Origin: Siphlonurus alternatus
Taxonomy: Eukaryota > Arthropoda > Insecta > Ephemeroptera > Siphlonuridae
Assembly (NCBI GenBank): GCA_949825025.1
Contig: OX463780.1
Coordinates: 49,497,280 to 49,561,279, forward strand
Reading direction: 5' to 3'
DNA: 64,000 bases
The stretch's first letter is position 1, and each line of letters begins with the position of its first letter. Both the position numbers and the translations under genes were made by a program. Below, in pieces: positions 9,201-59,200 of this stretch. The notes beneath the pieces were generated by a model. The model had not been told where the DNA came from. It ran no database searches and worked only from the letters and a program-made list of their open reading frames with translations.

Positions 9201-12200
9201 GATAGTTTGTTAGAGAAATTAGTCCCTGAAATACCATATTAGAAATTAAATAAATAATTTTAAATTTGAACACAGTTACAGTATGTAAAGTTATTGACAT
9301 AATATAACTTTGATGGACGATAAAATAAAAAATACCATTTTTAACATTTGTTTTCCCTGACGTAGGAACTGTGCATGCCGAGACTTGTTATTGCCCGGCA
9401 CCAGCTCTCTCTAATTGGCTGACCGAGTACGGCTGTGAGGAATCTCACCCACAGATCCTGGCAGATCTTGAGCCGTTCCCAAGTGTCAATTTCTCCGAGT
9501 TTCGATCTGCTACCACCGAGAGATTCAACAGGCCTGGCAGCATGAGCATATGCAACTACGTAATCAAGGACAACCAGGTACCTATCATTAAAAAGTATGA
9601 TTGACATTTCCCAAACTGTTAAGGTAGAGATCTACGTAATCAAGGACAACCAGGTACCTATCATTAAAATGTATGATTGACATTTCCCAAACTGTTAAGG
9701 TAGAGATCTACGTAATCAAGGACAACCAGGTACCTATCATTAAAAAGTATGATTGACATTTCCCAAACTGTTAAGGTAGAGATAACACTGATCAGCTGTT
9801 CAACGTAGTCCTCTTTGATTAACATGTAAACCTTAGCAAATTCACAAAAAATTTGAAAATTTTTTGAGAGGCAGATATTAGTGCCTAAAAGCCATAGAAA
9901 AAATTCAAGACAATTATTCGAGTCAATTTTTTTTTAATTATTATTATTTTTTTTTTTTAATTTTCAGCATAGGACTTTCCCATGGAGAGCCAAACTAAAA
10001 ACTTAAATAAATAAATAAAAAAAAAATTAATAATAATAATAAAATTTAATTTAGGCACTAAAATCGTTCTCTAAAATTTTTTTAAGAATTTTTGTGAATT
10101 TGCTAAGGTTTACATGCTTATCAAATGGGACAACAAAATCAGCTAATTCATGTTACCTTACCCTTAAATCAGTGCAGTATATTGTTGTAATAATGGACAA
10201 TTTGCATCAACTTTTTTTAGTAGCTCAATCGAAAGAGGAGGTCGAAAAATACACCTGTGAATTTTATGCGATTTTTATTCGTACTGCATCATGGCTAAAA
10301 GAGAGGTCACGTGACCTGGAGCCGGCGCCCGTGTCGCCCGTGACGTCATGAACTGTCTGGTCAAGCAAACGATTGTCTATATAACGCTTGTAAACAATAA
10401 ATTAATTGTTGCTTGTTTCCATAGCAACGTGGTTGTTTGCAAGCGTTATAAAGTCGATCGTTTGTTTGACGGAACAGTTAAGTGACGTCACGGGCGACAC
10501 GGGCGCCGGCTCCAGGTCACGTGACCTCTCTTTTAGCCATGATGCAGTACGAATAAAAATCGCATAAAATTCACAGTTGTATTTTTCGACCTCCTCTTTC
10601 GATTGAGCTACTAAAAAAAGTTGATGCAAATTGTCCATTAGCCTGCCACGATCATGTGTAACAGTGAGCTATGTTATATCAGGACAATGGACAACATACA
10701 TGAAAAAATTTTATTGCAGAAATGAATAGAGGGTACCAAATTATACTACTCTGATTTTTTCAGATTTTTTTGAGACCCAGAACTATTTTTAAATAATTAT
10801 TGAAAGTGCGGCCACGCCCCCTGGAGGCGTCAATAGGCGTCCAGTCTCTATCCTTTTTATTAAGGCATCAGGGGTGCCAACTGAAATCACAGGACTTTCA
10901 ATAATTGTTTAAAAATAGTTCCGGGTCTCAAAAAAATCTGAAAAAATTCAGAGTAGCATAATTTGGTACCCTCTATTCATTTCTGCAATAAAATTTTTTC
11001 ATGTATGTTGTCCATTGCAAAGTGCTGCTTATATATCTCTGGTGTGATAGCAGGCAACTCATTATGTTGTGGCGGGCAGATATCTCATTATTCCTGATGA
11101 CGGACGGTAAATTTTTTCAATTGCAATTGACAATAGTAAAGCACATTAATACAGCTATAATTGGGGTCTATTGCTAATGCTCTGTTTGGACTATTTCTTT
11201 CATTTGCAAAGAGGCCACATATTTATGTTACATAACGAGTTGATGCTGGTATTTCTCAGTTGCTATTGTTTTGACAGCAGTTGTGAAATAAGAAGTTACA
11301 CTTACAGTTTGCTTTCTTGAAAATTTTACATGAAGTTGAGACAAATGCAAATGACAAAAAAGAAGAAAGGCATGTTTGAACTTGCACGATTTGCTTTTAT
11401 TGCAGAAATATATAGAGGGCACCAAATTATGCTACTCTAATTTTTTGAAGACATTTTTACAGCCCGGGATGTATTGTTAAAAAGTTACAGTATTCAAAGT
11501 TCAGGTTCACATGCTTCTCTTTTTAGTCCCTATCCTTTTATTAAAAAGTGATGCCTCTCTATGTACCTTCAATAATTTAAAAGAAAAAAAAATCCCTGGC
11601 TGTAAAAAAACTTTAAAAAATACCAAAAATCAGAATATCATAATTTGGTACCCTCTATTCAACAATAAAAAAAAATCTTATAATTTTAATGAACCCATTA
11701 CGTGAATTTTTCAACTGAACAAATTGTATTGCAGTTGTCTTCATTGTTAACATTAAAGGATTGTAATATGGAGCAATCAAGATTTTACATTTGTATCTCC
11801 CATTATTTATTTTAATGACATTTTTTTTCTAAATTTGAAAAAAGAAAGTACTAACTTGATTTTCAGGTGTACAGAAGATGTTACGGAGAGCACGTTGGCT
11901 TCAAAATGTTCTGGGACAACATCTTGCTGTCACTCGCTCGTAAAGTGCGCCTGCCTGACATTGAACTGCTAGTAAATCTCGGAGACTGGCCGCTGGTGCA
12001 CAAAGACAAGGAGCTGCGGCCACCGATGCTGTCTTGGTGTGGATCTGAGGAAACAGCTGATATCGTTGTACCAACTTACGATGTGACGGAGGCATCGCTT
12101 GAGTGCATGGGGAGGTAATTTCTTGTTGATTTCAAGCATGGGTATAAGAAAAAAAGAAAATTTATTTCAAGCTGGTTTTATGATGAGATTTCAATATTTT

Positions 12201-14590
12201 GTTAAGGAGAGTTGAATGAGTTCTACAGTTTATGGAATTAAGAGTATTTAAATTATCCGTGGAGAAGAATGTGTTAAGGTTCATGTTCAAGTACAAATTG
12301 AGGACCTGGCATTTAAATAGATGTTTAAATCATTGCAGATAAAAATCATTATCTTATATTTTTCACCAATTACCTCCCAGCTGAATTTGTTACCTGCTTG
12401 ATTGTCAGCCCAATTATAGAATGTAATGCTAGCTTTATTCAGTTAATTGAAAACAGATAATATCAGCTTTATTATAATTAAAAAAAATAAAACAGTTGCA
12501 ATATATTTGAAACACTGATACGGTAACAAAACAACTTGACTTGTTCATTAAGCCTGTGTTACACAATAAAGAATTTCCTTTACAAGAAAATTTCATCTCC
12601 ATACAAACAAATGGAGTTAAAATTTTCTTGTAATAAAAAATTGTATGCAATAATTAGAAAAATTGTATCATATAATACTGGCTTTAAACAAGTAAACTAA
12701 AAATTTTTGGGCTGCTCTCACTGTTCACTTTCATTTCAGCGGTGATACTTTTTCCATAAACAAACCCTCATTGTTGCAGAGTGACCCTCGACATGCTGTC
12801 AGTGCAAGGGCGTACTCCACTCTCGTGGTCTCAGAGAGCTCCCAAGGCCTTCTGGCGAGGAAGGGACTCTCGTCGGGAAAGACTGAATTTGATCGACATC
12901 GCTCGCAAGAACCCTCACCTTTTTAACGCTTCACTCACTAACTTCTTCTTCTTTAGAGACGAGGAAGAAATTTACGGACCCAAAGAAAAACATGTTTCAT
13001 TTTTTGAATTTTTCAATGTAAGTGGCTTTCACAGTTAATTACCGGAAATTTCACTTTAAATGAATTATCAACAGCAATAAGTTTTATCTCATACAGCAAC
13101 TTTCATTTATTGAGTTAACTTACATTAAAGCCACTTTTCTTATGCAGCTCATCTTTATGTACTGTCATTAATTGTAAAAAAGCTTGCAATGTTCAACACT
13201 ACTAACAAATTTTTTTAAATTGAAAGTAATATATTTATTGTTATTATCTTTTCATAAACAAGCTGCATGAATGTTTTGTATCACAAATAGGGATGAAGGA
13301 CCTCAAGTTGTGTAGTGTCCGTTTTTCCAGATTGTTCTTTACACCCTCAAAATTGAGTCATACCTTTCCCTATACTGTATCATGTTTAATACTTTTACTT
13401 GACATATGATGTCGCAGCATTTTGTAGCAAAATTTCAGGTAGTTCGAGGGTTAATAATTGACGATACAAACCTTGAGGTCCTCTCTATTGAAATATACAG
13501 TAAAGAATTCCAAACTCAATTCTGTGTTTCAGTACAAGTACCAGATAAACATGGACGGCACGGTGGCAGCCTACAGATTTCCGTATCTTCTGGCTGGAGG
13601 GTCACTAGTCTTGAAGCAAGAGTCTGAGTATTACGAGCACTTCTACAAGCAGCTGAAGCCGTGGGAGCACTACGTCCCCTTCACCAGGGACCTCTCTGAT
13701 CTCGTGTCACAGTTAGAGTGGGCCAAGAACAACGATCAAGAGGCACAGAAGATTGCGAGACGAGGCCAGATCTTTGCCAGAGAAAACTTAGCTCCACAAA
13801 ATATAATCTGTTACCATGCAACTTTAATTAAGGTAAGTAATGTTTCAATTTTTTCATAAGCATTCATTGTTTAGACCTGAACCATTACAGGTGAAACTTC
13901 TCTCTTATATAGATTTCCAACAGTTGAGAGTTAAATTTTCTGTAACTAAATGTTTATAAGAATTTCATAAAAAAAAGACTTGAATTGCAACCTTATCCGA
14001 TGGTATAAGACAGAAGCCAAGAACTGCAGGATCATATTCCCATTTCCCATAGATTTTTTTCTTTTCTTCTCTTCTCTTTACTTTAATCTACTTTACTTTT
14101 TTTTTTTTTTTTTCTTTTGCAGTGCAACTTTATTTAATTCTGAGTTGTTTTTTTTTGCTGCAAGGTCAATAAATTGTAAGGAGTTTGGCTTTTTTAGTTG
14201 GGAAAATCTTTTCAAAATAATATTTTAAAAGTATTTTAACTATTAAATTTACATTTAATTTCATAATTTACTAATAATTTTAATTAACTTTAAATTTTTT
14301 ATTTGAAATGTAAAAAATATTTCCAAATCAGTAACAAGTGTACTTGAAAAATTTCACTTTGCAGTTTTTTCATCACCATTCCCCGTAAGAATAACACGTG
14401 GGCTACAAGTGGTAAATGTTTTAAGATAAGGCATGTACCCTTTTTTTTAACTTGTTTGCAGGAATGGCACCGTCGTCTCGTGAGTCCGGTGGAAGTTGGC
14501 AGGCAAATGGAGCTTGTTCCTCAGCCGGAGGTGGATGGCAGGTTCGGCAGCTGTGATTGTCACTCTGCTGAAGTCAAAGATGAATTGTGA
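6203..14590 (+). CDS. POGLUT2: KDEL-containing protein O-glucosyltransferase (POGLUT2/3, KDELC family)
   Basis: This is an ER-lumen glycosyltransferase. Vertebrate POGLUT2/3 add glucose to a serine of EGF repeats in Notch and fibrillins. Exons: 6203-6378, 8686-8891, 9366-9577, 11867-12114, 12780-13017, 13533-13832, 14462-14590, 1509 nt in all (502 aa, the usual family length). All junctions are consensus and in phase. Residues 1-19 form a hydrophobic signal peptide. Next comes the filamin-like domain ([32 protein letters not shown], about 30-135). The CAP10 glucosyltransferase domain (about 195-475) has [49 protein letters not shown] and YYEHFY. The protein ends SAEVKDEL, an ER retrieval signal. 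The first exon was identified from its signal peptide and filamin-domain start, and it joins exon 2 in phase. Whether the ortholog is POGLUT2, POGLUT3 or their single ancestor cannot be decided here. Intron 3 starts with a triplicated donor region (9556-9783). Confidence 0.95.
6704..6991. mobile_element. MITE, TAGAGGCTTCAAG family, copy 1
   Basis: The element lies in intron 1 of the glucosyltransferase gene. It begins TAGAGGCTTCAAGT and ends ACTTGAAGCCTCTA, giving terminal inverted repeats with a TA at each end. Two further members lie at 20283-20535 and 28837-29085, and two of the three share CAGCTGA just inside the right end. It has no coding capacity. TA-flanked ends would suit a Tc1/mariner-type origin, which is inference. 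Confidence 0.7.
7100..7725. repeat. Degenerate inverted-repeat element in intron 1
   Basis: A left arm near 7100-7160 (CCCTGTTTTGGTTCC.. then GGCTCCTTATAAT) is roughly complementary to a right arm near 7664-7725 (GGCTATAAGGAGTCC.. then GGACCAAAACCGGGA). A second inner pair is near 7417-7480 and 7583-7655. The loop is AT-rich with long T and A runs. It looks like an old foldback transposon, perhaps with a retroelement tail inserted at the poly-T near 7170-7190. Confidence 0.45.
9556..9783 (+). repeat. Triplicated 76-bp unit spanning the exon 3 donor splice site
   Basis: Three head-to-tail copies start at 9556, 9632 and 9708, exactly 76 bp apart and nearly identical. Each has the last 22 nt of glucosyltransferase exon 3, the donor CAG|GTACCT (true donor after 9577, copies after 9653 and 9729), about 42 bp of intron, and the first 12-13 bases of the hairpin element that follows (TTAAGGTAGAGAT). 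Because the element end is in every copy, the element inserted before the tandem duplication. Confidence 0.92.
9771..10167. mobile_element. Palindromic TTAA-ended MITE, family A, copy 1
   Basis: The element begins TTAAGGTAGAGATAAC and ends GTTACCTTACCCTTAA, with arms containing TTAACATGTAAACCTTAGC and its complement. TTAA at both ends would fit a piggyBac-type target duplication. Related copies are at 36108-36597, 60820-61201, 61203-61595 and 63029-63423. No coding capacity was seen. Confidence 0.75.
10193..10638. mobile_element. 446-bp hairpin element with CRE and E-box in each arm
   Basis: A nearly perfect inverted repeat centred near 10415. Each arm carries a GTCACGTGAC palindrome (10306-10315 and 10516-10525) and a TGACGTCA site (10341-10348 and 10483-10490). 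Because of the symmetry both strands carry the same short open frame starting [20 protein letters not shown], with one substitution between arms. It abuts the family A element that ends at 10167. It is probably a non-autonomous DNA transposon. The open frame is not recognised and may be incidental. Confidence 0.75.
10684..11017. mobile_element. Hairpin MITE, GAATAGAGGGTACC family, copy 1
   Basis: Inverted repeat beginning CAATGGACAACATACATG and ending CATGTATGTTGTCCATTG. Its arms include TGAATAGAGGGTACC and ACTTTCAATAATT. A diverged copy is at 11395-11672 and another at 16652-16960. It has no coding capacity. Confidence 0.75.
11395..11672. mobile_element. Diverged hairpin MITE, same family, copy 2
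   Basis: The arms TTTATTGCAGAAATATATAG / AGAGGGCACCAAATTATG and the complementary CATAATTTGGTACCCTCTATTC match the element at 10684-11017. The interior is more diverged and partly rearranged. Confidence 0.6.
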
Positions 14591-14865
14591 GCTTGTGGTA
14601 TATATGAGGCCGATTCTTGCATGGTGCTAACTTTTATCAGTAAAGGCCAAATGAATTAAGCAGCTTACTAGTGATTCATTCTAATCATCATAGCATATTG
14701 TAAATGATTAGGTGGCAGCTTATATTATAGATCTGAGGTGAAAAGTATTATGTGATTTCGTTTGAAAACTTTTTTTTAGCAGCCTTACATCTCTACTTTA
14801 TGAAGGGTACCGAATTTTTCTTAATACCCAGCAATGATTAACTAGTTTTTAGAACTAAGTGCAAC

Positions 14866-15220
14866 TTAAGGGTAAGGTAACGCCACCAATGTTAAAAAAA
14901 ATCCCTGTCACAAAAATTCTGAACAAAATTTAAAATGTTCTCCTCTACACCCCCTATCAGTAGCTAAAATATCAGGTATACAAATACGATCTAGTTTTTG
15001 AGTTATGAATTTTTAAAGTTGACCAATTTAACATGGGAGTTTCATTTCTCCATGTTAAAGTAGTCAACTTTAAAAATTTATAACTAAAAAACTAGATCGT
15101 ATTTGTATACCTGATATTTTAGGTACTGATAGGGGGTATAGAGGAGAACATTTTAAATTTTTTTCAGAATTTTTGTGAGAGGGATTTTTTTTAACATTGG
15201 TGGCGTTACCTTACCCTTAA
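14866..15220. mobile_element. 355-bp near-perfect hairpin MITE, TTAA-ended, family C copy 1
   Basis: It begins TTAAGGGTAAGGTAACGCC and ends GGCGTTACCTTACCCTTAA. The arms are nearly perfect complements that meet at a short loop near 15043. Related copies are at 30320-30692 and about 60470-60829. TTAA ends fit a piggyBac-like origin, which is inference from the ends alone. Confidence 0.8.
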
Positions 15221-16439: not shown

Positions 16440-16475
<36 letters not shown>

Positions 16476-18297: not shown

Positions 18298-21200
18298 TTA
18301 CAAATTGTTCTTACCCTGATCGAAGCAGCCAGGGTTGATGTAGCTGAGAAGGTCCTTCTCGGACATGAGTTGAAGGTCGTGAGGCAGGATGACGTCTGGT
18401 GATTTCTTGTCGTCACGCAGTCCTGCCGTGCGAGACAACATCGGAGTGACGCTGCCCAGCAGAACGTCCCGCACGAGGGGCCCGCTGCCCGCCTGACTGC
18501 TTTCCGACAGAATGTCCGTGGTGAGCAGCTGGCCCAGCTGGCTGTTGAGGAGATGAGCCTCGGTGACGAGTTCAGACTGGTGCAGAGCTGGCAACATGGC
18601 GTCTTCATGTGGAATGTTTAGCATTGACGATGCATCGACAGAATTATTCATTGTTGTATCAGCTGGTTGATAATGATTAGAATCAGAATTTACTAAAGCT
18701 TGATTTAATAATGTCATTGCTGTAGTATTATTAATATGATTTTCATTTCCAATTAAAGGTTCAACCATAGTTTGTGGAATAACTCCTTGTACATTTTGAT
18801 TTATTAATTGTGCTGATGATACGTTATCAAATGTATTCGTAGTTGGTGAGATTACTTGTTGCATTATTGTTGTCGGTATTAGCGCTGGAGGATTAAGTAA
18901 CTCCATGGCAGGTTGACTCTCCATCAATGGGGGATTGTCGACGGTTGAGTCAGGGTGATTTGACGTCAGAAGAACTTGATTCAGCACGGTAGGGATCATC
19001 TGGTGATCTGAAGTGGTGCTTATTTCAGGTAACCTGAAATCACCTTCCTCTTGCTTCATTGTCATCTCCATTGGATTGTTTGGCATCACTGGATGCACCA
19101 ACAACGGTTCTGATCTTGTTTTTTCATCAATCCCCTTGCATAACAGAGCTTGATGAAGTTGTATAGGAGAGTTGTCGTTATTAATAACTGCCTGAGATTC
19201 CAGAGTTGTGTTTGCATTCAACAGATGACGCTTGGTCTCTAAAAAATCAAGACTTGTGCTACTGACGAAAGATTCGTTACTAGGTGTTTTCACTTTATTT
19301 TCAGATGCTCCGTTTCCTATTTCTGACAGGAATTTCTCGACGCTGCTGCCACTCTGGGCTGGCAGTGGAGAGCCCGTGTTCTCTGACACAAACTGACGCA
19401 GCAAGTTCGCTTCGCCAGGGCACATCGAGGCGGCTGGAGTGTCGGCCAACTTCTGCCGCAGCAGCAGTTCCATCAACACCTGCTGGTTGATGTTGATCTG
19501 GACCTCCTTCACGTTCTGCGACTTCCTCTTGGTGGCAGATTCTGAATAACAAAATTTAGTATTTGATAAGTTACCTGAGAATTGTTTAATTTAAAATCTT
19601 AAAATTAATTAATTAAAATTTAATGCATAATGTAGGCTGACAATTTTTTTGTATTGTAAATATTGCTTTTTTTCTGTTAGTATTATGTTGTTGTGGTGTC
19701 AATTTATTGTTATTTTTTAGTGTGTTGAGATTTTGACGTGATGTATGTTGTGTTGTGTTGGAAGTGAAATTATTATTATTTTACACAACATGATGTATAG
19801 AAGAATCGTGTTTCGGGGTCAATTTTACTCTCTCACATTTCACATACCTTGCAAGGGTGCTTGAGTCAGCATCATCAGAGCAGCAGTGGAAGGTAAGGCA
19901 GCCGTCTTGGGTGGCTGTCCGGCCAACAGGCTTGGCAGTATCAGAGGCATAACCATCCGCTCTTCTAAACAAAAGACAGCTGGGGGTTACAAAAATAACT
20001 GCTACTGATTAATTTTATAAACGGAAGTCTTTGATTTTTAGGGTTGCAGACTACACTACTAGCATTAAACAAAGTACAGTGTTCAATAATGAAAATCATA
20101 CTTTCTTTTGAAACAGTCCACGATATTCACAGTGTAACTCCTTGGGACAGCCTAAGCATTATTCCTTCCGGGTAATTTCACACAATGACGGTGTGTTTAA
20201 CTTAACTTCCTTTATAATAATGTGTGCTTAACTTAATCACTCAATCATCTTTTATGCATGACTAGACCTGCGTGTCTCCAACAGAGGCTTCAAGCGTTCC
20301 CCCACGGTTTCACCATAAGCCTCCATGTTAGAAAATTTGAATGTTTCTCCGTAGCTATTAAAGCAAATAATTTGAAAACCTCTCCAACCCCCTATTTAGG
20401 AGTTTTCTGATAAAAATAAAGAGCTTATTTTCCTATATTTTGTTATGCCAAAAAGCAATTTCATTTTTTTTTTTTTTTACATGGGTTTAGATACACGGTG
20501 GAAACACCACAAAATCAGCTGACTTGAAGCCTCTATTTTAAATGTGCTCGTCTCTTTGACTCTAAGAAATATCAGACGAGATCATGATTCGAAAACTCAC
20601 GTAAAGCAGCGGAGGTTTTGCTCGAGACGATACGCTCAGCCACAGTGGGCAGTGCAGCGACTGCATGAAACAAAAGTATCGGTCAAGCAACAGCAATGGT
20701 TATCAACTTATACTGCATCGCTGGAACAAGATACATGCCTTTGGGGGACTGATACCCAAGCCAGACAAAGAAATTATAAAAATATAAGTAAAAGAACAAT
20801 GCATAAATTATTGCATTTTTTTAATGATATAAATTTGAATGATTAAATAAAAACTAAAAATAAAATAATAATATACAATATGAATTGCAAGGAAAAAAAA
20901 ATCTGGCTTCAGTATGACTCACAGCACCCATGTCTGTATGCAACAAATCAGTTTAACTGGAGGAAAACATTCGCACAGATCACACATCCTAACTCACAAT
21001 TGCACACCCCTTGCTGGATGATATGGCAAGTTTTACAACCTTTATCCCCGAACACAAGAAACTAGTCGTTTTCTCTCTTTTTCTCCCTCCACCAGAGCTG
21101 TCATGGCCCACACTCAGGCATTCAGGTGCGGATCACGGGAATCCAAGAAAGATTCAGAAACATAAGACGTAAGTAGTCCTTTTTTGAAAGTAATAAATTA

Positions 21201-24200
21201 TCAAAAGATAAACGTGAATGGTTAGTGCCTCATCAGTCTCTCTTAGATTATAGGAATAGGGAAAAAAGTGATTTTTCTTTTTAAGTAAAAATGAATTCTC
21301 GCAAAAAAATATATATATTTTGGAATTGTAAGTTTAAAATGCAGACGAATTTTTAATATTTTTTCTGCAAAGTTTGCTTTCACTATTTTACATTTACTTT
21401 TATTATGTTGATAATAACACCATAAAATGTTTAAAACTGAATTTGCATTCAAAATCATCCATTACAATCAAATTTCTGATGATTAAGGCTACATATAGTT
21501 ATGTATATTAAAGAAAGAATATGCTGAAAGGCAGTAAAAATTTAATTCATGTCAAGTTACAAAACTTTTTTTTTTTTTAATTAGGTAAAAAAAATATTTA
21601 CAATAAAAATTCATAATAAGAAATTTTTTAAGTTTTATCGAAGAGTAAAAATAATAAGGGAAAGGGTATAAGACTGTAAAACTACCAAATTACCAAACCT
21701 GCATCTGTTGACTGCTAGTGTGCCCTGGTTTACAATATAAAAAATTAAATTAATTTATAAAAATTTAATATTAAAACTTATTTTATATCATTTGATTAAA
21801 ATTCCAGTACGCACACGTGACAGTCAAGCCCCTTCCTCCCCCCACCCACCCACCCCCCGGCCTCACATTCATCCCACATTTCTCGCACACTATACTCATG
21901 AACACTCTTCTTGCACTCGGGACCACAAGGGACTGTGAGCCCAGATGACAAAAGGAAAGACTTGCTGGTTGACGGGATCATTTCGGATAAAGGTGGTGAA
22001 GGGAGAGGTAACGAAAGGAGCTTTTTTTGACTCCGGAGACGTACCACGCGCCGGAACCTAGTCAGAAATATGGGGGAGAATTATCGTCTCTCCTAGGCAG
22101 CAGCATCAGTTTGACGATCTTGGGGAACAACTGTGAGCAGATACAATAAGCCAGGGTGGGGTTAACATGACATTAAGGTCTAGGGATTTAATATTTTTCA
22201 GCTCTGACTGTAATCTTTAACCAAACAATTATTTACATGTTATATTTAAAATGAATGTGAGATGTTTAAAATTTTAATTAATTTATGAAATCTTATGATA
22301 TTATAATTACAAGTGTGTTCAGATTACAGATCAGAGATATAAATTTTTTTAAATCCCTTCCTTGCATTTTTTGTTTGTTTATAAAGAAAGAAACGAAATG
22401 AATTTAAAAAATAAAATAAAGTATAAACTATTAAGTAGAAAAATAAATGCTCTTATTTTTAAAACTCAAATATAAATTTTCATGTTATTTTTATTAATGA
22501 TATTGTTTAATTTTGAGCATGGCAGTATTTTTGTTTCAGAGAGAACCAAAGAGCTTTAAATTTTACTAGATACTCTGTCTTAGCACGGAACACCAAGATA
22601 GAATAATCTAGAAATGATATGACTCTGAGGTTTGGTAGAAGGGGTAAAGGGCTCTTATTAAACATAAGACCATTTTCCCCCTCTCCACTCCCAAATCACA
22701 AACACTACTTCATCAAAAAAGTGTGCACTTGCCATTGTCATATATATTTTTTTTCCTTTTATATATATTTTTGTGTGACATTATCAGAGATTTGTTTGCT
22801 AAAAGAATACAAGAGTATTCACCGCCATATAACCTCTCAACTATAACGTTGCGCACGGCTGTGCATCCTGATTTGGGCGCTGGCTGGCCCACCTCTTCTC
22901 GCCCTTTTTTCTTCTGGCGGGAGAACAGACAAGTGAGCATACATTTTGCGATTAGTATACAAGTAATAACAATATGGTACTTTCTTCAATATAATTTATT
23001 TTAAAATGAAAAATTTACAATTTTAATACAAATGCAAAGTATTTTAAGATAAATATTGTATACTTTTTTGTTTTAAATAACTAAAACATATTGTTATTAC
23101 TGTAACCAAGTACAATTTTCAACATTATAATTATCATAAATATGTTAAGAAAAAAAAAATGTTTATTTTGTATTAAAAGTTAATTATTTATGAAATTAAG
23201 TTAAACAAGTACTTGGTTTGATTATATAATAAATAAAATAACACACGGATCCTTATTAAGGTATATGGGCTCAAAAAAATATGCAACAAAAATTATTCTT
23301 CCAGACACACACACAATCTACAGGCAAACATTCAATCTTTCTCTCCATATCTCTTTCTCGGGGAAAAGAATCCGTGTGTTTGGGTAACAATAAAAAAAAA
23401 AATAAAAGGTTTGTTTTTTTGTTGAGGCGACGCAAGCCAGCATTGAGGCACAAAATAATTTAAGAGCAATTCCTCCCACTCCCCCACCCTTCCTCCCCAG
23501 CCCTCTAACTGACCTGAACCTAATATCTCACTCCCAGCACACTCCATTCAGCCAAAACCTCAAACCCTCTTGAAAGCATGCAAATTTATACCATCAAAAA
23601 TAAAAGTTACTATTTTGATTAAAAAGAGTACCAAATATTAATAAAAATAATGAGGGTTTGTGTGTCTGGATGAAGTCTACCATTAATTCCAACTAGTCCC
23701 AACCAAACTAAAATTCCTCCTAGCAATATCTCCATCCCTCCCACTCACAGCCATTCACTACAGCAAAGAAAATTAACTTGCTTTAAATGTTAAATCATTT
23801 TCAGAAACTTTTTTTTTTTTTTTTTTTTAATAATCAAGATTTATTTCCACAGTATAATATAGCCAGGCACTTATCAAATTTTAAGTGCTCAAGCATCATT
23901 ATTTATCCATAAACATAGCTTGCGGTGGTTAATGGCTGACAAATCCTAGACTAACTAACTTCCCAGTGCTCCTGCCTGGTTGCTGGTTTGTTCAATCCTC
24001 TGCCACCATCAGATTCACAACTCAAACAAAAATATAGCACAAGTGAAACGCAAAGTTTTAAAAAAAAACAAGAATAGTCAAGTTAAGCATCAACAATAAA
24101 TTATCACATTCGTTATAGTAAGTAAAAGAATTTTGTCCGAGTTATAGATCTCTTGGTGGCCTCATTTATTCGCACACTCACATTTGCTCAACACTTTACG

Positions 24201-33786: not shown

Positions 33787-33877
33787 TATTTACACAGATT
33801 AACAAATTAATGAAATAGTGTCTCTCATTACAGAAAGTGAGGCAAACTCTCGCCTCTTATAAATCTATGATGAGTTA

Positions 33878-36107: not shown

Positions 36108-36597
36108 TTAAGGTTAAAATAACACGAAACAGCTGATCGATATATTCCCATTTGATTAACATTTTTAGAAGCAATAACTGCTTGGTCCACAGACCCGAAG
36201 TCAATTAATACATCAATAAATTCAATTCAATTTGATTAACATGCAAACCTTATATAGCAACCTCATAAAAATTCTGATTATTTATTTATTTATTTTTTGG
36301 AGACACTCCTTAGCACCAAAAAGTTGCAGAAAAAATTGCAAAACAATTGGACGAGCTGATTTTTTTAAATTAATTTTTTAGTTTAGCTCTTCATGGGAAA
36401 GCCCTGTGCTGAAAACTTAATTAAAAAAAGTCGTCTTTTCGATTGCTTTGAATTTTTTTCTGCAATTTGGTGCTGAGGAATGTCTCTGAAAAAAAAAAAA
36501 AAAATCAGAAATTTTTATGAGGTTGCTAAGGTTTACATGTTAATCAAATGCAAATGGGACTACGTCAATCAGCTGTTCCATGTTGTATTACCTTTAA
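36108..36597. mobile_element. Family A palindromic MITE, copy 2, with a nested short repeat
   Basis: It begins AAGGTTAAAATAACACGAAA and ends TGTTGTATTACCTTTAA. The arms carry TTGATTAACATGCAAACC and GGTTTACATGTTAATCAAAT. The left arm is interrupted at 36169-36230 by the short dispersed repeat, which duplicated the words ATTTGATTAACAT on both sides. Confidence 0.7.
36169..36230. repeat. Short dispersed repeat, copy 3, nested
   Basis: GAAGCAATAACTGCTTGGTC followed by CAGACCCGAAGTCAATTAAT matches the copies at 25171 and 33878. Flanking direct repeats TTTGATTAACAT mark its insertion into the family A element and suggest a target-site duplication of about 12 bp, as expected for a retroelement. Confidence 0.5.
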
Positions 36598-45300: not shown

Positions 45301-45782
45301 CTTTGTTGTTTCAGAAAATGGTTTGCCACGGCCAGCACACATTCGTCTACAGTCAAGTTTTGTTACAAGTTCTCGGACTGGAGCTCAAAGGAGGTTCAAA
45401 TATGAAAAGATTATCACAAGAAATCACAAAGTGTGCAAGAGAAAAGTAAGAAAGAAATTTTTGTTACAGTTTTCCCTTTTTTGTTCTCTTCCTCTTGCAT
45501 GTAAAAATGATTTTTTTTTGTGCTTCTAATAATTAGGCCACTTCAACTATAGAGTACCTGTTACACTTAAAAATTAAACGAAGTTGGTGCATACAAGATA
45601 ATGTACAATAGTTTTTAGAAAATATATATTTTTGCTTGAGCACTCCATAAATTAATACAATAAAGTTTGCATGTAATTAATTTATGAAAAGAATTTAATT
45701 TAAGCGATACTGTTTGTTTATAAAGAACAACACATATGTTCCAATTTCCAATACAGTTTATGTATTACAAATTTATATACAG

Positions 45783-45863
<81 letters not shown>

Positions 45864-47195
45864 TAGTATCTTTGGGTGGTATTCACGAAGAGTTAAGGAG
45901 CGTTTAAGGGAGAGAAATTTTAAGAAGCGTTTTTTATACCAGGTAACAGGTAAGAAAAACGCTTCTTAAATTATCTCTCCTTAAAACGCTCCTTAACTCT
46001 TCGTGAATACCACCCTATATTTCAAATAACATAATTTTACCCCACTCAATTTATTTCAATGAGATCAGCATACGAAGAAATAAATTTTTTATTGATGTTT
46101 GTCGTTATGACAACAATTCTCCAAACTCTCTGATTGGATCAGTTTTTTATCAATGTTTTAAAATCACTGTGACACCAACAGCTGGATTTCACAATAAAGT
46201 TGAAGTTCAATATCAGATACCACTTATTAATACGAGTGAGTTGGTGATTTTTGCTTTTATTCTTCATGAATTAAAGAAGTCCCTGTAGGAAATTCTGTAG
46301 CCAGTTCAATAGAAGACTCCTACCGAAAAGGTGGTTTCATTCAAATGGCTGATCCTTCTATGTATTTTTTTCTTCCATGGGTTACAAAGAAAAAGTCATT
46401 GTAGAAAGTTTGGTAGATAATGAGCTGGTTTTAATTGATTTCATGAAAACACTGCCCTAAATTAACCCCCAGCCAACACGACGTGACGCCAATCGTGATG
46501 GCGCTTAACGGATCTGCCAGCCACCCGGCCGCCTGCCTGGCCCTCTCCTCGATGCTGTCTCGCAACAGCCTCAACCCCGCGGACATCACCCAGCTGTACC
46601 GACACTACACCTCGACCGATCCTCCGCCCATAGACCTCCTGCGCACACCTCAGTTCTTGGGTGAGTGACTCGGAACCTTGTTGGTCATTTTTTGCATAAG
46701 AATTTCCAGGCATGATAACGACTAATTCAGGCTAGCAACATTCTCTGTTAATCCAATTTGCTATCAATTTTATTTATGTAGGCTTTCCCCGGTGTTCTTT
46801 TCCTATAATGTTAAATTTTTGTTGTGTAACTACTAAAGCTATTAATTTGAAAACATCTCTTCACCTCCCCTCCTCTTCTTTTTTAATCAGAGAAATTTCT
46901 CTCCAGTCTTGCTTCTATGATGAAATGTGTCCTTGATATGAAAAGGATTTGATGATTTTCTCCCTCTTTTAATTATTTTCACACCTCCTTCTCTTTCTGC
47001 TTTGATTGTGAGTCGGTACTGAAGTTAATTACCCATACAAAGTAATAAATTTTATGATAATTTATAATACTGATGCAAATGAACAAAAGCATTTAGCTAA
47101 TTGTTGGAATCATAAATAAACATTGTTATCATACCTAGATTGTCTTGCTAAAATTTTATATTCCTGTTAGGAGCCAAGTTTGTGTGTACAAGAAA

Positions 47196-47235
<40 letters not shown>

Positions 47236-50200
47236 AGGAACAAAGTTTGCGAGTTTGTGTATTACAGGGATCTCTTTTAATAAACTGATTTTATTAAACA
47301 TAAATAGTGTCAAGATACAATTAAACATAAATAAATAAGACATAATTATAATGAACATAGACACAAAAAGAGTTATGGAACCACTGAATTATATATAATA
47401 TGGAACAGAATATTAAATTAAAAAATTGATAAATATAAAATATAAAATAGTTAATAATATAGTATCTCTTTTAATAACGTATCATTAAAATCACTCAAAG
47501 TGAAAAATGCAAAGAATCTTTTCGGCATTTCAAAATTATAAAATGTACATAATATTTTTTTGGCTTAAAAATCCAGGATTCTAATAGATTTAATAGATTT
47601 AATAGATTTAATAGATTTATTCAGTTCTTTAGGCTATACAAATAGCATAGAACAAGTCATATACAGTCACAATACATCAAAACGAAAATACACAAAACAA
47701 CAATAACAACAAACATAAAATAAATACAATAACTAGATAGCCAAATAACACATTATTTTTTTTGTAAAAAATCTTTAACGCTATAAAACAAATTCATCAT
47801 AAGATATTTAAATAATTCTTTCTTAAAAGATGCAAATGATCCAGAATTTTTTATATAATCAGGTAAACCATTAAATATAAGGGGGACAATATAGCTTGGA
47901 TTATGATCACATAATGACAATGTATGATGTTTTATATGTAAATTTTCGCGTTGCCGCGTTCCATAATTATGTACATTAATGTTACTGCTAAATAACTCTG
48001 GATTTTTCTTGGCAAATTTAGCACACTCATATATAAAAACACATGGAAGAGGCAATATATCCAGCTTTTTAAATAGGCTAACACATGACGTAGGCAAAGG
48101 CACACCACACATAGTGCGTATGAGACGTTTCTGCATTACAAAGACAGAAGTTGCTTTAGATGAGTATCCCCAAAAAATAACAGCATATTGTAAGTGGCTA
48201 TAACAATATGAATAATACATAGATTTTAACACCGATTCAGACACGGTATTACGTAGGGAGTGAAGCAAATAAACCCCTCTGCGTAGCTTTGAATTAAGTG
48301 CAGAACAATGATCAGACCAGTTCAAATTTTCAGATAAATGAAGACCTAAAAACTTAGTACATTGAGTGGATTTAATTACGGAATTATTAATTTTTAAAAG
48401 AGGACTGAACGCAATATTTTTTTGATAAGGGTGAAAATGAATGAAGGTTGTTTTTGAAGCATTTAATGTAAGCAAATTATTATTTGACCAATTTTCATTC
48501 TCTTCCACAGCCTGTCTAACTTTAACTAAAACAGTAGCTTGATCTGGATGACATATGATATTATTAGTATCATCAGCGTATCTAACAAGTACACCCTGCT
48601 TGACATATTTTGTCATATCATTTGTATAAAGATTAAAAAGGGGTGGACCGATGTTGGTACCTTGAGGGACACCCTTATTAACGACAACTGAATCTGAATA
48701 AATATTGCTGCTGCTTCCATTATCCAGAAATTGATTAATTACCACCCTCTGTACCCGATTTGACAAAAATGAGCGTATCCATAATAACGCTCTCTCTCCA
48801 ACTCCGTTATCAGCAAGTTTTCTTAACAGTATTGAGTGGTCCAAGGTGTCAAAGGCTTTACTATAATCATAAAAAAGCCCCAAAGTTTCAGCACGAGAGT
48901 CTAAAGAGTTGTAAATTGGATCTAACAAGTTAAATATTGCAGTATTTACAGATTTATGGGGAGTAAAGCCATGCTGGTCTGGAGGTTGCACTGTCAATAA
49001 AAAGTATATAAATTGATTATAAAAAGCCTTTTCAAAGACTTTAGAAAATGGAGATAAATGAACTATTCCACGGTAATTATTTGGGTCTTTTTTACTATTT
49101 TTTTTAAAATATGGATATACTAAAGTATTTTTAAGTTCAGCAGGGAAAGTACCAGTTAAAAAAGATTTATTAATTATTTTTGTAAATGGGGCAGCTATGA
49201 AATTAGTGGATAATTTGACAATAAAACATGGTATATCATCAAGTCCTTTAGCATGAGAATTTGGGAGACTTGCAATGATTTTTTTAGTATCTGCAACACT
49301 TAAGTATTCCAAATCAAATTTAACAGGAGCTTCAGATATTGGAATAGGTTCTTCTAGCTGTATAATCGAGGGCCCCCCTGCAAATGTTAAATTAAAAATA
49401 TCAGCAACTGACTTAGGATCAGTTATTTCAACATCATCTTGACAAAGTACAATATTTGAGTCTGTAATGGATTTTTTACAAAGAGAGGGTACTTGGTTTT
49501 TAATAATATTCCAAGCTGTTTTATTTTTATTATTGGAGGTGTCAATTTTTTTACTGTTAGCTGTTAAGTATGTATTTTCAATTTTTGTCTTATGTAATTT
49601 TAACGCTTGCTTATAGTTATCATTTTCAACGGGGTTAGGATTAATTTTAAGTTTATAATGCCAGTCTCGTAACTTAAAACCTTCTTCAATTATGTCTGAT
49701 GGCATATTTGGTATGCTACATTTACTTGTATTTATAGTGACCTTTTTTTCTGGAAAATATTGTAAAAAATAAAATTTAAATAAATCGATGAAGTTATTAT
49801 ACATTGTATTTACATCATCATTTGAATGCACTTCCGCCCACGTTTCAAGTGATAACGCTAAGCTAAAAGCATTAATTTCATTTTGATTATAAATTCTTTT
49901 CATTTTTATAATTTTAATATTTCTGGTATTTTTTAGGTCTTTCAGAGATAAAAAGACAGCAAAATGGTCTGAAAATCCAGCAGATAATGTGTTACAAATT
50001 AAATAATTAGCATCAATATTTGTAAAATAGTGGTCAATTAAAGTTTTTGAATAGGGACCAATTCTGGTAACATCTGAATTAACAAGTGATAGATTATAAC
50101 AATCCATTAATTCTAGCAGCCTATTTTTTACATTTGTTTCTTTAATAATGTCAATATTTAAATCACCACATACGACTAATTGTGTATTTTTTTTACAGAT

Positions 50201-53200
50201 TTTAGTCAGTGTATTCTCAAGATTGTCAAAAAATGAGTTAATATTATTTATATCAGGGGCTCTATAAATTGCAAGAAGTAAAATTTTTTGATTACACAAT
50301 GATAATTGTATCCCACAACATTCAAAGGATGATACAATTGGGGTAATATCAGCAATAACTTTTATTTTTAAATCATTTTTAATCAATATCATTACGCCGC
50401 CATATCCAATTAGACCTCTTGTAAAATAGTTTGCTGTTTTATAGCCAGGGATAGAAAATACTGTAACCTCATCTTCTGTTAGCCAATGTTCACATATTAC
50501 AATTAAATCAGTGGCAAATGATTTTATATACGATTGAAACAGTAAAAGTTTATTTCTAATAGACTGAACATTTAATAACATTATGGTAAAAAAATTATTT
50601 TTTATGCATTTTTTTACAAATAGTACATCATTCAAATTTGATTGATTTATTGTTACGTTCTATTTGCAGTTTAAATATTTTCGAACTACCCTGGGTTCCT
50701 TACTTGGCATCAGGCATTTTCTAAGTATTGTCATGGTAAAATGTGATGTTCCTATTGAGAGCCGAGTTTATGTGTACAAGAATCCTGTTATTAATTCTTC
50801 AAGTCTAAACCCTATACATTTCATCCTGGCTTAATCGGCACCTCTGATTTCACTAACTCCACTTTGACCTGCCAGAAGAAAATCCTTTTTTTCACCTCAT
50901 CAAAGATAAGCTCAAAATCATTTCTTTTTTGAAGCACTTTACTATAACTGAATCTTGATGTGGATATTGTGATGACTGTAACTGAATGTTGATGTGGATG
51001 ACATATTGTTAGAGCTGCTGGTGGACACGTTGTTCAAACCGTCTGGCAAACTGAACCCCGAACACAAGCCCAAGTACATCTACCTGCTGGCCTACGCAGT
51101 GAGTGTGACCGAGGCGGTACCGGCACGGGGGCGCGGCCAGCCAGCGAGGCCGGCAAGCAAAGAGGAGCTCAAACCCACCATGCAGGCCATTGAGAAGGTG
51201 ACCGCGATCTGCAACACCAACAAAGGCACCAACGAGATCATCGCAGAACTCAACACCCTCTACAGCTGCATCAGGTAACTGGACATGTTAGGCCTGCTCA
51301 GCATCAGGTAACTGGACATGTTAGGCCTGTTAAGCATCAGGTAACTGGACATGTTAGGCCTGTTCAGCATCAGGTAACTGGACATGTTAGGCCTGTTAAG
51401 CATCAGGTAACTGGACATGTTAGGCTTGTTAAGCATCAGGTAACTGGACATGTTAGGCCTGCTCAGCATCAGGTAACTGGACATGTTAGGCCTGCTCAGC
51501 ATCAGGTAACTGGACATGTTAGGCCTGCTCAGCATCAGGTAACTGGACATGTTAGGCCTGTTAAGCATCAGGTAACTGGACATGTTAGGCCTGTTAAGCA
51601 TCAGGTAACTGGACATGTTCAGATTACTCTGAGCATGTTGACGAACAAAATCGTGATGCCATTTGCACTCTCTACCCCACTGGTGTATTACTCTGTGTAC
51701 TCCGAGCAGGGTTTACGAACAAACCTAAAGTTAGGAGAGAACCTAGTGGCAAGAATTCAAACTACATTATATTCAAAGGAGGATAGTTACATGTACATAA
51801 TTAAAATTGTAAATTAATTGCTAATAGCAGAGCCACGGTATAAATGTACAGTTCTTAAAGTTAAAAAATTGGAATACATGCGTTAGAATCTTACCTATGG
51901 TTTCCAATTTTTAACTTTAAGAACTGTACAGAATTGAGAACAAAATAAGCATTTGTAAGATACCTTCTTCAAGTATTATAATGCCTTTCATTTAAATTTT
52001 TTTATTTTTTTTTATTCTCCAATGCTATACTTACAATATTGCTGTAGCCTTTTTGAAACAGTGTAGGTAATAGAGCCAGTATATTTTTCTTTCCTATCCT
52101 ATCCCACTCAAGAGCCCAGTGGCGGCTCGTGGGCTTGGACATAGGTGTGTCTGCTGACAGTGGTGAAGGCAAATACATTCGGGGGGTCTGGGGAGCGGAG
52201 CCCCCCAGTAGCCCGCCGCAGGCGCGATTTTTTTTCGGTTTTCGCTTAAATATCTACCATTTTTTTTTAATAAAAAAATTCATTTAAAATAAATATAAGT
52301 AATATAGTTGCAACCAATATTTATTTTCTGCAAAATGTAATAAGTAATAATTAAACTTTCAGAGTTAAGAGTCGTGAATTTTTTAATATAATTCATCATA
52401 AAATAAATAAATTTATTTCTGAGACGGAGAATATAAAATGAAAATAAACGTAAATATAAAATTTAAACAAAACGAAATACAATAAGTAGGGATGCTAATA
52501 GAATAACATGTAAAATTACTTATAATAATTTTGATTATAATTTTAATCTATTACGAACGGAAAACCTCAAAAAGATAATCTGCTAATGCTCCAGAGACCC
52601 TGCTAATGCTCTGAGATGTTTGAAAAAAAAAAAAAAGACAAAAGATGGCGGAACGTGATGACGGCGTATGCACTCAGTGCTACAAAAAATGTGAAAACGT
52701 TGATAATAACTTGAAGTGTGAAGGTGACTGTGGCAGATTATATCATTATAAGTGTTTTGGCATTAGCAAAGCTAAATTTAAAACCATGAAGCAGCTCGGA
52801 TCTTTGTGGATCTGCTACAACTGCAGCCGCGGAGAAAAGGGACAGGGTGAAAACGAGGACCAGTCAATGGCAGAGACTCTAAAATTAATCTTAGAAAAAC
52901 TTAACAAACTAGATCAAATTGTCCCCAAAGTAAATCAACTGGAGGAAAAATCTATTGCCCTTGAAAAATCAGTGCAACATCTCTCTGATATATACGAAGA
53001 AACCAATAATAAATGCAAGGAAATTATGATTATGAAAAGGGAACTTGAAGAAGTTAAACTAAAAAATCAAGAGATGGCAGCACAGATAACAAATCTTGAA
53101 AATGAGAAATATATCATGAACCAGGCAAAACTAAACTCCGAGCTTATAATAGAGGGAGTACCGGTGCTTGCAGAGGAGAACCTTCCGAATATGATTTGTA

Positions 53201-56200
53201 AAATTGCTACCTTGACCAAGCAAAACTTGTCTAACCAAGACATTGTAAGCGTGAAGCGCTTACCACAAAATCCTCGTAATTTAACTAACCCCACCCGCAA
53301 GACTAGACCTCCGGCTATCTTAGTGAAACTAAAATCTGACGAACTGCGTGACGAGTTTATTAATAATAAAACCCAAAATTTACCAATGATGTTTGTGAGA
53401 GACGTCTATGATGATGAAACCTGTGCTTCTGCTGATGAACGAGTGTTCATCAACAGAGTGTACATCAAGGAGTATCGAGACATCTTCTACTATGCTCGGT
53501 ACAAGCTCAAGAACCGCAATGGTCCTAACTACAAGTACGTGTGGATCACCCGCGAGGGCAAGGTCTTTGCTCGCAAGCTCTTCGACTCCAGGCCTATCTG
53601 GTGCAAGTCTCGCGAGCAAGTTGACACCTTGGCTAATGCAGAATAGATGAGTGACAATCTAATAGTGAGTAAACAATAATAAAAAGCATGCCTTGCAATG
53701 GCTGACTTTAATCTAAGTGACAATGTTGATTTAACTTATTTTAATTTTGGTAACGTAGAAGATTTTAATATCAAAGCAATAGGTAACTTAAATATTCTGT
53801 ATATAAATGTAGTAACTATGCGAGATAAACTGGACTCGCTTGATTCACTAATTAAAAAATTCATATGTACTATTCATATAGTATGTTTAACTGAAACTAG
53901 GCTAAAAGAAAATGAAACGAAATTCTACAATATTGATAATTTTAACCTTGTATTCTCTTGCCGTAACTCTAAACAAAAAAAATCAGGAGGGGGCGTGGCC
54001 ATGCTTATTTGTAAAAATCTATCTTACAATGTTGTTGAAGCAAAAGGTAATGATTATGATAATTTTTTATTCGTTCATTTACCAACTCAAAAAATAAATG
54101 TAGGTGTTATCTATAGACCACCAGACAGTGATCATGGTCGTTTTCTAGAAGATTTTGAACCTTTACTTTCAAACTCTCATACTATCATAGTGGGTGATTT
54201 CAACTTGAATCTATTACAAACAACAGCTCAAAACAATAGCTATACTGATATAATTACGTCTAATGGATATTATTTTGTTAATAAAATTTCGGAATTATAC
54301 CCTTCTAGAACTACTGTAAATACAGCAACATTAATTGACCACTGTATTGCTAACATTTATGATTTAAAAGCGAATTATTCCCTGATAGACCATGACATCA
54401 GCGATCATAAATTAGCTTTGATAAATATCGCTAATAAAATCTTAAATACCGCAGAGAATAATAAAATTGCTTCTAAAAAAATAACAAAATATGACATGCT
54501 TAATAATAACTTAAAAAAATATCCAATTAATTTAATTGAAAGTAAAGATATTAATACTGTATTTAATGCATTTATACAAGACTTAGATGAAAGAATAAAA
54601 AAATGTACAATCACAGCTAATATAAATGTTAATAATAACTCGCGGATTATCAAATGCTGGATGACTCAGGAAATTCTGCTACTTATAAAATTAAAAAATA
54701 AGTATTTTGCGTACAAAAAACTTTATCCCCATATTAAGGGATATGAAGATAAATATAAAGAAATTTGCAATGAAATTACTAAACAAAAAAGATTAGCTAA
54801 AATAAAATATTTTGGAAACCAAACTAAACTTGATTCCCCCAAAAAATGTTGGGACACAATTTATGAAATTATATATAATAAGAAATCTCGTAATGCAAAT
54901 AATATGTTACCAAAATATTTTGTTGATGATAATAATAAGATTATTAAAGAAGAACAAGAAAAACTGAATCATATTAACAATTATTTCTGTAATATAGGAG
55001 CTGAATTAGCAAGTAAAATTGATAGACATAATCTTTTACAAACAAATACCGAATTTACAAACAATGATAATAGTGCCAATGCACCTAAAACTAATATTAA
55101 AGAAGTAGCACAAATCATACATTCTTTAAAAAATAATACCTGTCCAGGAATAGATGGCATTACGTGTAAATGCATAAAGATTTGTTCTGATTGCCTATTA
55201 AAACCAATTACGAAAATTATTAATTTGATGCTAGAAACAGGAGTATTTCCGGATAAGCTGAAATGCGCAATAGTATTTGCAGCATACAAATCTGGAGATC
55301 CATGCCAGGTATGTAATTATAGACCTATCTCAGTCTTAACAATTATATCAAAAATATTTGAGAAAATCTTAGACTTACGACTACAAGCTTATCTTAACAC
55401 AACTCAATTTATTAGTAGTTCTCAATTTGGATTTTGCCCAAATTCTAATACAGAGACTGCTGTTTATGACGTAGTTAATAATTTACAAACCTCGTTAGAC
55501 GAACATAAAGATAATATTGGGGGTCTTCTATTTATTGATTTAAAAAAAGCTTTTGACACTGTTCATCACGCAACATTACTAAAGAAGCTTGAAAATATGG
55601 GAGTAAGAAATAAATTTCTAAAACTATTTCAATCATATCTTACAAATAGGAATCAAGTAATAGTTAATAATAGTAATAAAAGCCAAGAACTTAAAATTAC
55701 CTATGGCATCCCACAAGGGGGAATTGTATCACCGAGACTTTTCAATATCTATATTAATAGTATAACCAATCTAAAATTACGAGGAAAGCTATGGAAATTT
55801 GCTGATGATATTTGTCTACAATACAGTTCTAAAAGTGAAGAAAATATAATAAGTGATATACAACATGACCTAAATTTACTAAATAATTGGTTTAAAACTA
55901 ATTTCTTAACGCTAAATGCAAATAAAACTAAATTTATGATAATAAAAAGAGGACAAAACATAATATGTACTACCTTACCTTCAGTAGATAATATTTTAAT
56001 AGAACAAGTAGATGAATACAAATATCTAGGATTTATCATTGACTCGCAATTAAAATGGGAAAATCATATTAGTTCTATAAAAAAAAAAATTCTCCCAGTT
56101 ATTGGAATCTTATGGCGTACTCGACATTATATCCCTCCCAGTGTTAAAAAACAAATTTATTATTCTTTAGTCCATTCACATTTAAATTATATGGTAGGAA

Positions 56201-59200
56201 TCTGGGGAAATGCCTGCCAAGTTTTATTGAAACCTTTGCAAATCCTACAAAATAAAGCTCTAAAAATACTGTATAATTATGAATGGAGGAAAAATACTAT
56301 TGAACTATACACTGAAACAAACATGCTGAATATTACAGGTTTAAATTCAAAAAATCTTTGTCTATTTGTGTATAAAATTATGAACAATCTCATCAAAAAT
56401 AATTTCTCATTAGTACTAAATAGTGATGTACATAGCCACAATACTAGGCGTTCAAATAATTTTCATATTGATTTTACAAGAACTAATCTAGGTAAATTCT
56501 CCATTCTATGTAAAGCTACCCATTTATATAATGCTCTGCCTGATAACATAAAAAATATAACTTCAATAAAAATGTTCTCAGATAGAGTAAAAAAATACTA
56601 TATTGCTCAACAATTTGTTCTAAGTAGAAATGTGCAAACATGTAGATATTCTTCATTATTATATTATGCCTAATAATTATAAAACCTTATTATAATATAC
56701 AATCTGTATACTAAATAACTATTGATTTGATAATATTTTAATTTTCAATCAATATAATACTATTTCTAAAACATGTGTAATTTGTGTATCTATTTTGTGT
56801 TAGTTTTGACTATTTGTTTAATATATTATAATCCAAACTTATAGTGTTTATATGAATAAGCTACATCAACTTTTTTTCTTAACTAAATTGTTATTGTTAA
56901 TTATGTAGTGAAATATTTCTGTCATCATGTTTTTCTTTTCCAGATGAAACAAAATTTTCATTCCTCTTCTCGAGCTTTAGCTCATTGAGGTATAAATGTC
57001 TTTTTGTATAAATGAAATGTATCATGTTTATTTAAAATGAAATAAAAAAAAAAAAAAAAAAAAAATTTTGCGCACCAGCGCGCCAGGCGCTGTGATTGGG
57101 CAGCTAGGCGCTGTGATCACTGTGATTGGTAGCTCCGCAGCGGCCTCTACAGAAAGGCTGCTCGCTAGTCAGACACACGATCATCATTGAGCGCCCATAC
57201 TGAGCGATAAATTGGCCGAGATAGCGCTACAACGTTAAACGTGTGTCTGAAAGCGCTGCAGTTTTCTTCGTAGTTTTAAACTTTCTGCTTCAATTTTTTA
57301 ACAGAAACTTCTGTTTTTTCAACAAATAACACTATAAACTACCAGAAAATATTAAAAAACATTAAATAAATATCATAATATTAAGAAAAATTATAAATAA
57401 AAATATAGAAATATAATTTAAAAAAATGAAATAATTCTGCCAACTTTGCTGGTGTGGCTGCAGTTCAGCAGTACCCCCCACGAGCCGCCACTGCAAGAGC
57501 CTACAAAAATAGTGCTAAAAGTTAAAAAATTAATAAAGTATTTTTATTTTGGATAGAAAAGTTGCTGTTGGTTGAGTGGTGGAAGATTTTGTATGATGAC
57601 AGAAAGTAAAATAGTCAGAGACCTTTTCGTCTTATGGCCAGAAATTTAACAAAAAAATTGTCACAGTTTTCCAGAAACGTTGGCACCACTTGAAGCTTTT
57701 AAGAGTCGTTAATTCCTGGAACTATATGAGTCAAAATTGTGACCGAAATTTGGACTGTTTGTGAATTTCCTGCCTCTGACTTGTTATTTTATGTACTCAT
57801 GATGGAAATTCAATAAAATAAAAAACAAATAAAAACAGAGAAATCTGATAGTCTTCTCTGATTCTGAACCTGTTAGCCAATATGTCATTATAAAAAGGAG
57901 AAGACAACTCTATTATGCTCTAATAATCTCATTAAATAAGATCTTCATAAAATGAAGATAAAATTAGTCTCTTTCATCTGAGACTGTCAGTTTTACTTTT
58001 TGTGCTAATTATTTACTAATGTTTTCATTGATATAGGTATTGCAATTTTGACTATTGTGCCAATCTTTGTAAATAATTAAACTGATAGCATCTGGCGAAA
58101 GTGAGCAATTTTCTGTGGCAAGTGAAAGTGTCACTCCTTGCAGGTTCCCGGTGGTGTCCGTTAAGTGAAAGTGTCACTCCTTGCAGGTTCCCGGTGGTGT
58201 CCGTTGGGGTGGTTCGCTGGGTGGAGTGCACGGTGACGGAGCCGAGCTACTTCAAGCTGAGTACGGAGCACACCCCCATCCACCTGGCGCTGCTGGACGA
58301 GGTGGTCACGTGCCACCCCCTCCTGCACCCCGCCGTGCTCAGCTTGTTGGTGCGCCTCTTTGAGTCCAAGCAGGACGAACTCGAGATCCTTGTACAGGTG
58401 TGTCCATTTTAAATACCTGTCATATCACATTGTTTCTGGTAGTGAAACTGTCGACGGATAATGAAAATTATATTTAAGTATTATTTGCATCTTGCAAGAG
58501 TCAGAAAATGTTGGTTTTAATGTATCCCATCTCAAAAAGAACTTAACATACATTGATTTCTTAATTTCGTAGCATAGGTCAATTATATAGGAGAATTATT
58601 ATAATGTAAATTGTTCGTTTTTTTTTATTGTGTTTTGTCCTTAATTAAATTGTGAAAAAAATTAAACTGAGCAAAACCCATTCTCTCTGCCTCCAAAACA
58701 AGCGCCGAGTCAAACCTAGAAACACATTGCATTGAATTTCTCTTTTTGTCAATGAACTCAAACTATCTCCCAGCAAATCTTTTTCTCTCGTATGTGTTCT
58801 TATCCTCAAATTGTTTTCAGTAGTAGCTTACTTCCCATGTTTTGGTAAAAAAATAATTGCTAACTTTGATTTGGAGTTGCTGAGATTTTGTCCCTGTCCA
58901 GCTGGAGATGCGCAAGATGCTGCTGGACCGGATGGTGAACCTGCTGAGTGTTGGCTGTGTTGTCCCGGTTGTGCAGTACATCAAGCAGTGCTGGACCCGA
59001 GGAGACACCGACATCTCCCTCATCAGATACTTCGTCACAGAGGTAACACTAGGCACCGATAACGTCACTTTTTAATTTCATAATTAAAAATGTTATATAA
59101 AATTATCCATTTTTTTTTTCAGATTTTTTGAAATTGAAAAACTAATTTTAAAATAATATTGGAATTATATCATAAACTTGCCCTGTGCTTGGTTGAAGAT

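Follow-up and report, generated by a model that had tools for sequence, protein, structure and literature searches.

Genes and tandem arrays of the window

This work concerns short tandem arrays that lie across exon-intron borders in a 64-kb stretch of the genome of the mayfly Siphlonurus alternatus (64,000 bases of contig OX463780.1, hereafter the window; the assembly holds 455,680,777 bases in 102 contigs). Pfam and homologous proteins identify four genes in the window: a thiolase, a POGLUT2-like gene, an NFAT5-like gene and the gene for NELF-C/D. To model their junctions, conserved reading frames were joined at GT/AG sites and the outcome compared with homologues, which gave 63 junctions after correction, as compared with 70 splice sites in an earlier reading of the same DNA from its letters alone (the sequence-only reading); our list may omit some thiolase and NFAT exons.

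Searching the window with Tandem Repeats Finder (TRF; minimum score 30, arrays of period at least 25 bp considered) yields five arrays, with units of 33, 43, 58, 76 and 92 bp and 96-100% matches, Table 1; the program gives additional periods for arrays 2 and 4. Each of the five contains exactly one junction of our gene models, three being donors (9577/9578, 51274/51275 and, on the minus strand, 25683/25682) and two acceptors (44261/44262 and 58186/58187). One array falls in the POGLUT2-like gene, one in the NFAT5-like gene and three in NELF-C/D, and homologous proteins agree with the reading across the array junctions. TRF and our own gene models thus reproduce what the sequence-only reading had described, five arrays on junctions in three of four genes with the same donors and acceptors. 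Array 1 sits on the donor of intron 9578-11866 and array 2 on that of the minus-strand intron 25682-25059, while arrays 3 and 5 occupy opposite ends of a single intron, 51275-58186, and have different units (33 vs 43 bp). Donor arrays run from exon into intron and acceptor arrays from intron into exon.

Table 1. Tandem arrays on or near splice junctions, and the genes of the window (window positions, except for the kinase locus L047)
Feature	Position	Strand	Description
Array 1	9556..9783	+	76-bp unit x3.0; 22 exon bases, donor and 54 intron bases; POGLUT2-like
Array 2	25503..25687	-	58-bp unit x3.2; NFAT5-like donor, last exon base 25683
Array 3	51268..51619	+	33-bp unit x10.7; 11 donor copies; NELF-C/D
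Array 4	42953..44317	+	92-bp unit x15.1; 15 acceptors; NELF-C/D
Array 5	58120..58205	+	43-bp unit x2.0, perfect duplication of acceptor; NELF-C/D
Diverged tandem pair	50941..50999	+	lag 34; ends 13 bases short of acceptor at 51013, junction not contained
CaMKK array	L047		49 bp x3.6; on acceptor of HRD exon
CaMKK array	L047		47 bp x16.8; on donor of upstream exon
Thiolase gene	1000..5554	-	no array; ends approximate
POGLUT2-like gene	6190..14590	+	filamin repeat and GT90, C-terminal KDEL; outer coordinates approximate
NFAT5-like gene	18298..28773	-	Rel homology region; ends approximate, exons may be missing
NELF-C/D (TH1) gene	39400..59702	+	final short exon outside model

Multiplied over the five arrays, the probabilities of overlap come to 3.4e-4 if whole footprints are placed, 2.0e-6 for GC-matched single units and 6.7e-7 if wholly exonic units are excluded; these values were calculated after the fact for a window picked because it looked odd, and so overstate the case. 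A second, more sensitive scan, which looks for tandem-like self-similarity with lags from 15 to 400 bp, finds, beyond the five arrays, one diverged tandem pair and two non-tandem repeats (36776-37083 and 60900-61374). The pair is possibly an older case of the same kind. In the same scan the introns, which make up most of the window, show no arrays away from junctions, and there is no array inside any of the 34 modelled exons.

Anatomy of the arrays and consequences for the reading frame

Terminal homology amounts to 11 nt in array 2, 22 nt in array 3 and 7 nt in array 4; arrays 1 and 5 have none and their copy numbers are whole. In view of the absence of terminal homology in arrays 1 and 5 and its different lengths in arrays 4 and 2, the arrays were probably initiated by more than one route. 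The exon copies of array 4 are identical across all 15 units, so that this array is either young or homogenised; its poly-T varies in length, and base variants are present in arrays 1 and 3. The source of an 11-bp filler in array 3 was sought across the window and no match was found elsewhere. Rfam and tRNA scans returned no match, nor did a comparison of array 4 with phage records, which is uninformative.

Among the copies tested, only the one flush with the exon gives the normal protein, every other leading to a stop. In arrays 1, 2 and 3 a stop follows if the second donor is used, and in array 5 if the upstream acceptor is. In array 4 each of the 14 upstream acceptors leads to a stop, and of its 15 acceptors only the last, with first exon base 44262, continues the NELF-C/D frame; in array 3 it is the first donor copy (intron base 51275) that is used in the NELF-C/D model. 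From these reading frames we infer that the splicing machinery would have to use the exon-flush copy, in which case the array would be removed as intron and the protein left unchanged.

Four of the five units carry AG/GT, as the sequence-only reading had emphasized. The count is right but unremarkable, since the junction list used for array overlap has AG/GT at 15 of its 27 donors and 8 of its 32 acceptors; it is no commoner at the arrays than at other junctions, and we have dropped it as a special property of the arrays.

Arrays at kinase loci and in random pieces of the same genome

In order to look beyond a window selected for its appearance we have used 22 loci of 3,024 bases each (66,528 bases) from the same genome, chosen only by a kinase motif. 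They contain eight TRF arrays of period at least 25, two of which contain a junction, one an acceptor and one a donor, both in a single CaMKK gene (L047, Table 1) whose exons match CaMKK2 in the PDB with E values of 2.5e-24 (HRD exon) and 2.4e-8 (upstream exon). An array in an ERK gene starts 11 bases inside an intron, one in a BRSK gene (82% matches) 8 bases inside, and another stops 49 bases ahead of an acceptor. That the ERK and BRSK arrays lie just inside introns and copy no splice signal suggests that place rather than signal matters. The remaining three are found inside an inverted repeat that resembles a miniature inverted-repeat transposable element (L040), in A-rich sequence (L043, 1864-1911) and in AT-rich sequence with 80% matches (L048, 998-1047); the last two were left out of the probability counts and the first was kept as a miss.

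For the five kinase arrays with at least 90% matches, assuming 3 to 8 junctions per locus, the probability of at least two junction-containing arrays is 0.015 to 0.095, and that of at least three within 11 bases of a junction is 0.002 to 0.037. Adding the 82% BRSK array gives 0.0002 to 0.009 for at least four of six, and pooling with the window (7 of 10) gives 1e-7 to 7e-6, a figure whose window part was selected. The clustering on splice junctions that had been claimed for the window is thus real there and recurs in a small sample of kinase loci.

A random sample of 20 10-kb pieces was drawn from the same genome as well, of which two are satellite (L010 and L025, units of 345 and 476 bp) and the other 18 were analysed, revealing 12 TRF arrays of period at least 25, several of which resemble mobile-element or AT-rich repeats. 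A coding-potential model trained on the window exons recovered 27 of 32 of them with 15 other calls; it made 89 calls in the 18 pieces, none of the ten tested matches Pfam, and it was not used for exon counts. In piece L013 a diverged duplication of lag 120 (1840-2023) spans a putative acceptor, with an alignment score of 137 vs 41 for the best of 200 shuffles; it looks like an older acceptor case, and, its exon being putative, was excluded from the counts. The same piece has a 126-bp x9.8 array (8203-9442) whose repeats apparently form an open, putative coding frame.

Several observations weigh against a preference for borders. None of the 12 arrays in the random pieces is known to contain a junction, exons there being unannotated, and no exon was recognised near a perfect 77-bp x2.0 duplication (L022, 3544-3695). 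The kinase numbers are small, and the number of junctions per locus is assumed rather than annotated. Within the window, 60-bp probes at 62 junctions were compared with 2 kb on either side, along with 300 control positions; the five array junctions score 70-120, and remnant copies are absent at the other 57, where the maximum score of 29 equals the control 95th percentile (29, n=300). It follows from the last result that the arrays are all young or that their turnover is fast. And because some arrays in the random pieces lie away from any recognised exon, the pattern is one of enrichment, so that the location of all arrays on junctions does not extend to a genome-wide rule.

Other features of the genes and the window

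The NELF-C/D introns harbor three reverse-transcriptase elements (39800-41800, plus strand; 47753-50659, minus; 53683-56673, plus), of which two have RVT_1 and endonuclease domains in Pfam and the one at 39800-41800 was recognised from its translation only. A dispersed element with ends like CCATTTGATTAACATGTAAA occurs at 60850-63087, 36137-36247 and 9820-9850, the last being a fragment downstream of array 1 that matches at least 16 further places in the genome.

In a NELF-C/D tree of 42 rows the window sequence groups with three mayflies (support 100/100). Its closest relative is that of Ephemera, with 92% identity over 507 columns, and the pairing with Ephemera has support 87/64. In Ephemera danica the proteins for POGLUT (P0121) and NELF (P0014) have neighbouring gene numbers, EDAN001679 and EDAN001682, on contigs whose listed lengths are equal, which suggests that the gene neighborhood and its order are conserved in that species.

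Relation to known systems

The closest known system is the 'mirage' minisatellites of amphioxus, tandem copies of exon-intron borders described for globin (PMC3087553) and PGBD5 (PMC3902484) genes and, as cited there, for Adh and TnC. These two papers give units of 10-72 bp in Adh3, about 150-160 bp in globins and 60 and 108 bp in PGBD5, and report both length variation between haplotypes and normal splicing. The mayfly arrays share with this system a repeat that spans the exon-intron boundary (all five window arrays and the two of CaMKK), the involvement of both boundary types (three donors and two acceptors in the window, one of each in L047), occurrence in unrelated genes of one genome (POGLUT2-like, NFAT5-like, NELF-C/D and CaMKK), units of tens of base pairs and AG/GT in many units. 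They differ in belonging to an insect rather than a cephalochordate, in reaching up to 15-17 copies and in having some arrays placed just within the intron. We accordingly file them as mirage-type minisatellites in an insect; no report of such arrays in an arthropod was found in the literature searched, a search that most subscription journals lay outside.

Two other systems bear a partial resemblance. Introners (PMC9860276) are dispersed copies in many genes; like the mayfly arrays they are repeats tied to introns, but queries around arrays 1, 3 and 5, the three searched in the genome, each give one full-length match, and these three are not dispersed in that sense. Introns can also be gained when exon sequence bearing AGGT is duplicated in tandem (PMC3443670 is a review, and PMC2891723 describes cases in Drosophila), and there too the tandem duplications are short and take in splice signals. 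In intron gain of this kind, however, the duplication itself becomes the intron, whereas the mayfly arrays decorate one end of longer introns.

Origin of the arrays

The sequence-only reading had offered two causes, a mechanism tied to splice sites or selection that tolerates such duplications. The explanation that we favor, and hold to be somewhat more probable than all others together, takes something from each: the window arrays would be mirage-type minisatellites produced by a duplication hot spot at exon-intron borders together with purging of exonic copies. Small tandem duplications would arise at the borders of the mayfly genome, within some tens of bases of them, and grow by slippage or unequal exchange, some to 15-17 copies; selection would remove duplications inside exons and leave those that keep a flush junction. 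Candidates for the cause of the hot spot are the sharp step in base composition (GC of 0.529 in exons vs 0.313 in the remainder of the window, so that about 53% would fall to about 31%) and nicks or breaks linked to transcription or splicing.

Tolerance alone, with duplications arising evenly, exonic ones purged and junction ones surviving by virtue of the flush site, is a rather unlikely account, which can nevertheless call upon the 34 array-free exons and on the damage that use of a wrong copy would cause. Duplications within introns should be at least as tolerable, but away from its junctions the window shows none, and the null without wholly exonic units is 6.7e-7. Since tolerance explains the missing exonic arrays but not the missing intronic ones, a border hot spot is favored; some positional bias is needed, for which R-loops, the spliceosome and base composition are candidates.

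A selected function, in which repeated splice sites would tune splicing, or alternative splicing, by serving as decoys or buffers, could appeal to the 15 intact acceptors of similar score in array 4 and the 11 identical donors in array 3. It is improbable, given that the other copies lead to stops, that the genes are unrelated, that the arrays lying just within introns leave the splice signal uncopied and that the amphioxus authors report regular splicing to be undisturbed.

We regard an assembly or polishing artefact as more doubtful again. The amphioxus globin case is reported to have been misassembled in one draft; here, units differ from locus to locus, base variants (arrays 1 and 3) and poly-T variation (array 4) are present, the genome matches to arrays 1, 3 and 5 are single, and assembly error would have no reason to prefer splice junctions. 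Chance, amplified by the choice of an odd window, has on its side that selection after the fact and the most conservative null, 3.4e-4, and becomes very improbable with two more junction arrays in 22 loci chosen by motif.

Least probable of all is intron gain through tandem duplication of AG/GT, hinted at earlier from the four units of five that carry this sequence and not borne out: AG/GT is common at other window junctions, and the introns, with lengths of 624-6,912 bp and an array at an end, are not unit-sized, nor is any of them a duplicated segment with copies at both ends (in the shared intron the units are 33 and 43 bp). In addition, the array-4 acceptor falls where a protein model of Ephemera danica has the edge of a gap: among the 120 listed homologues, P0014 is missing residues 52-95 and picks up again exactly at this junction, and as the left edge of the gap is no junction and the model may be flawed, this weakly suggests an array-4 intron older than the array. 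The other array junctions have no such gap-edge match among the 120.

Implications

If duplication does prefer exon-intron borders, splice sites would be mutational hot spots in addition to being conserved signals, a preference that would bear on the origin of cryptic splice sites, alternative exons and new introns. We put forward, tentatively and as a possibility rather than an expectation, that border-directed duplication in both amphioxus and mayflies keeps making junction minisatellites, with a few per cent of junctions carrying a young array. With the assembled 456-Mb mayfly genome such a preference could be measured over every junction, as was not possible with the few amphioxus genes. 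Under a process directed at borders, if true, the ends of exons would continually face duplicated splice sites.

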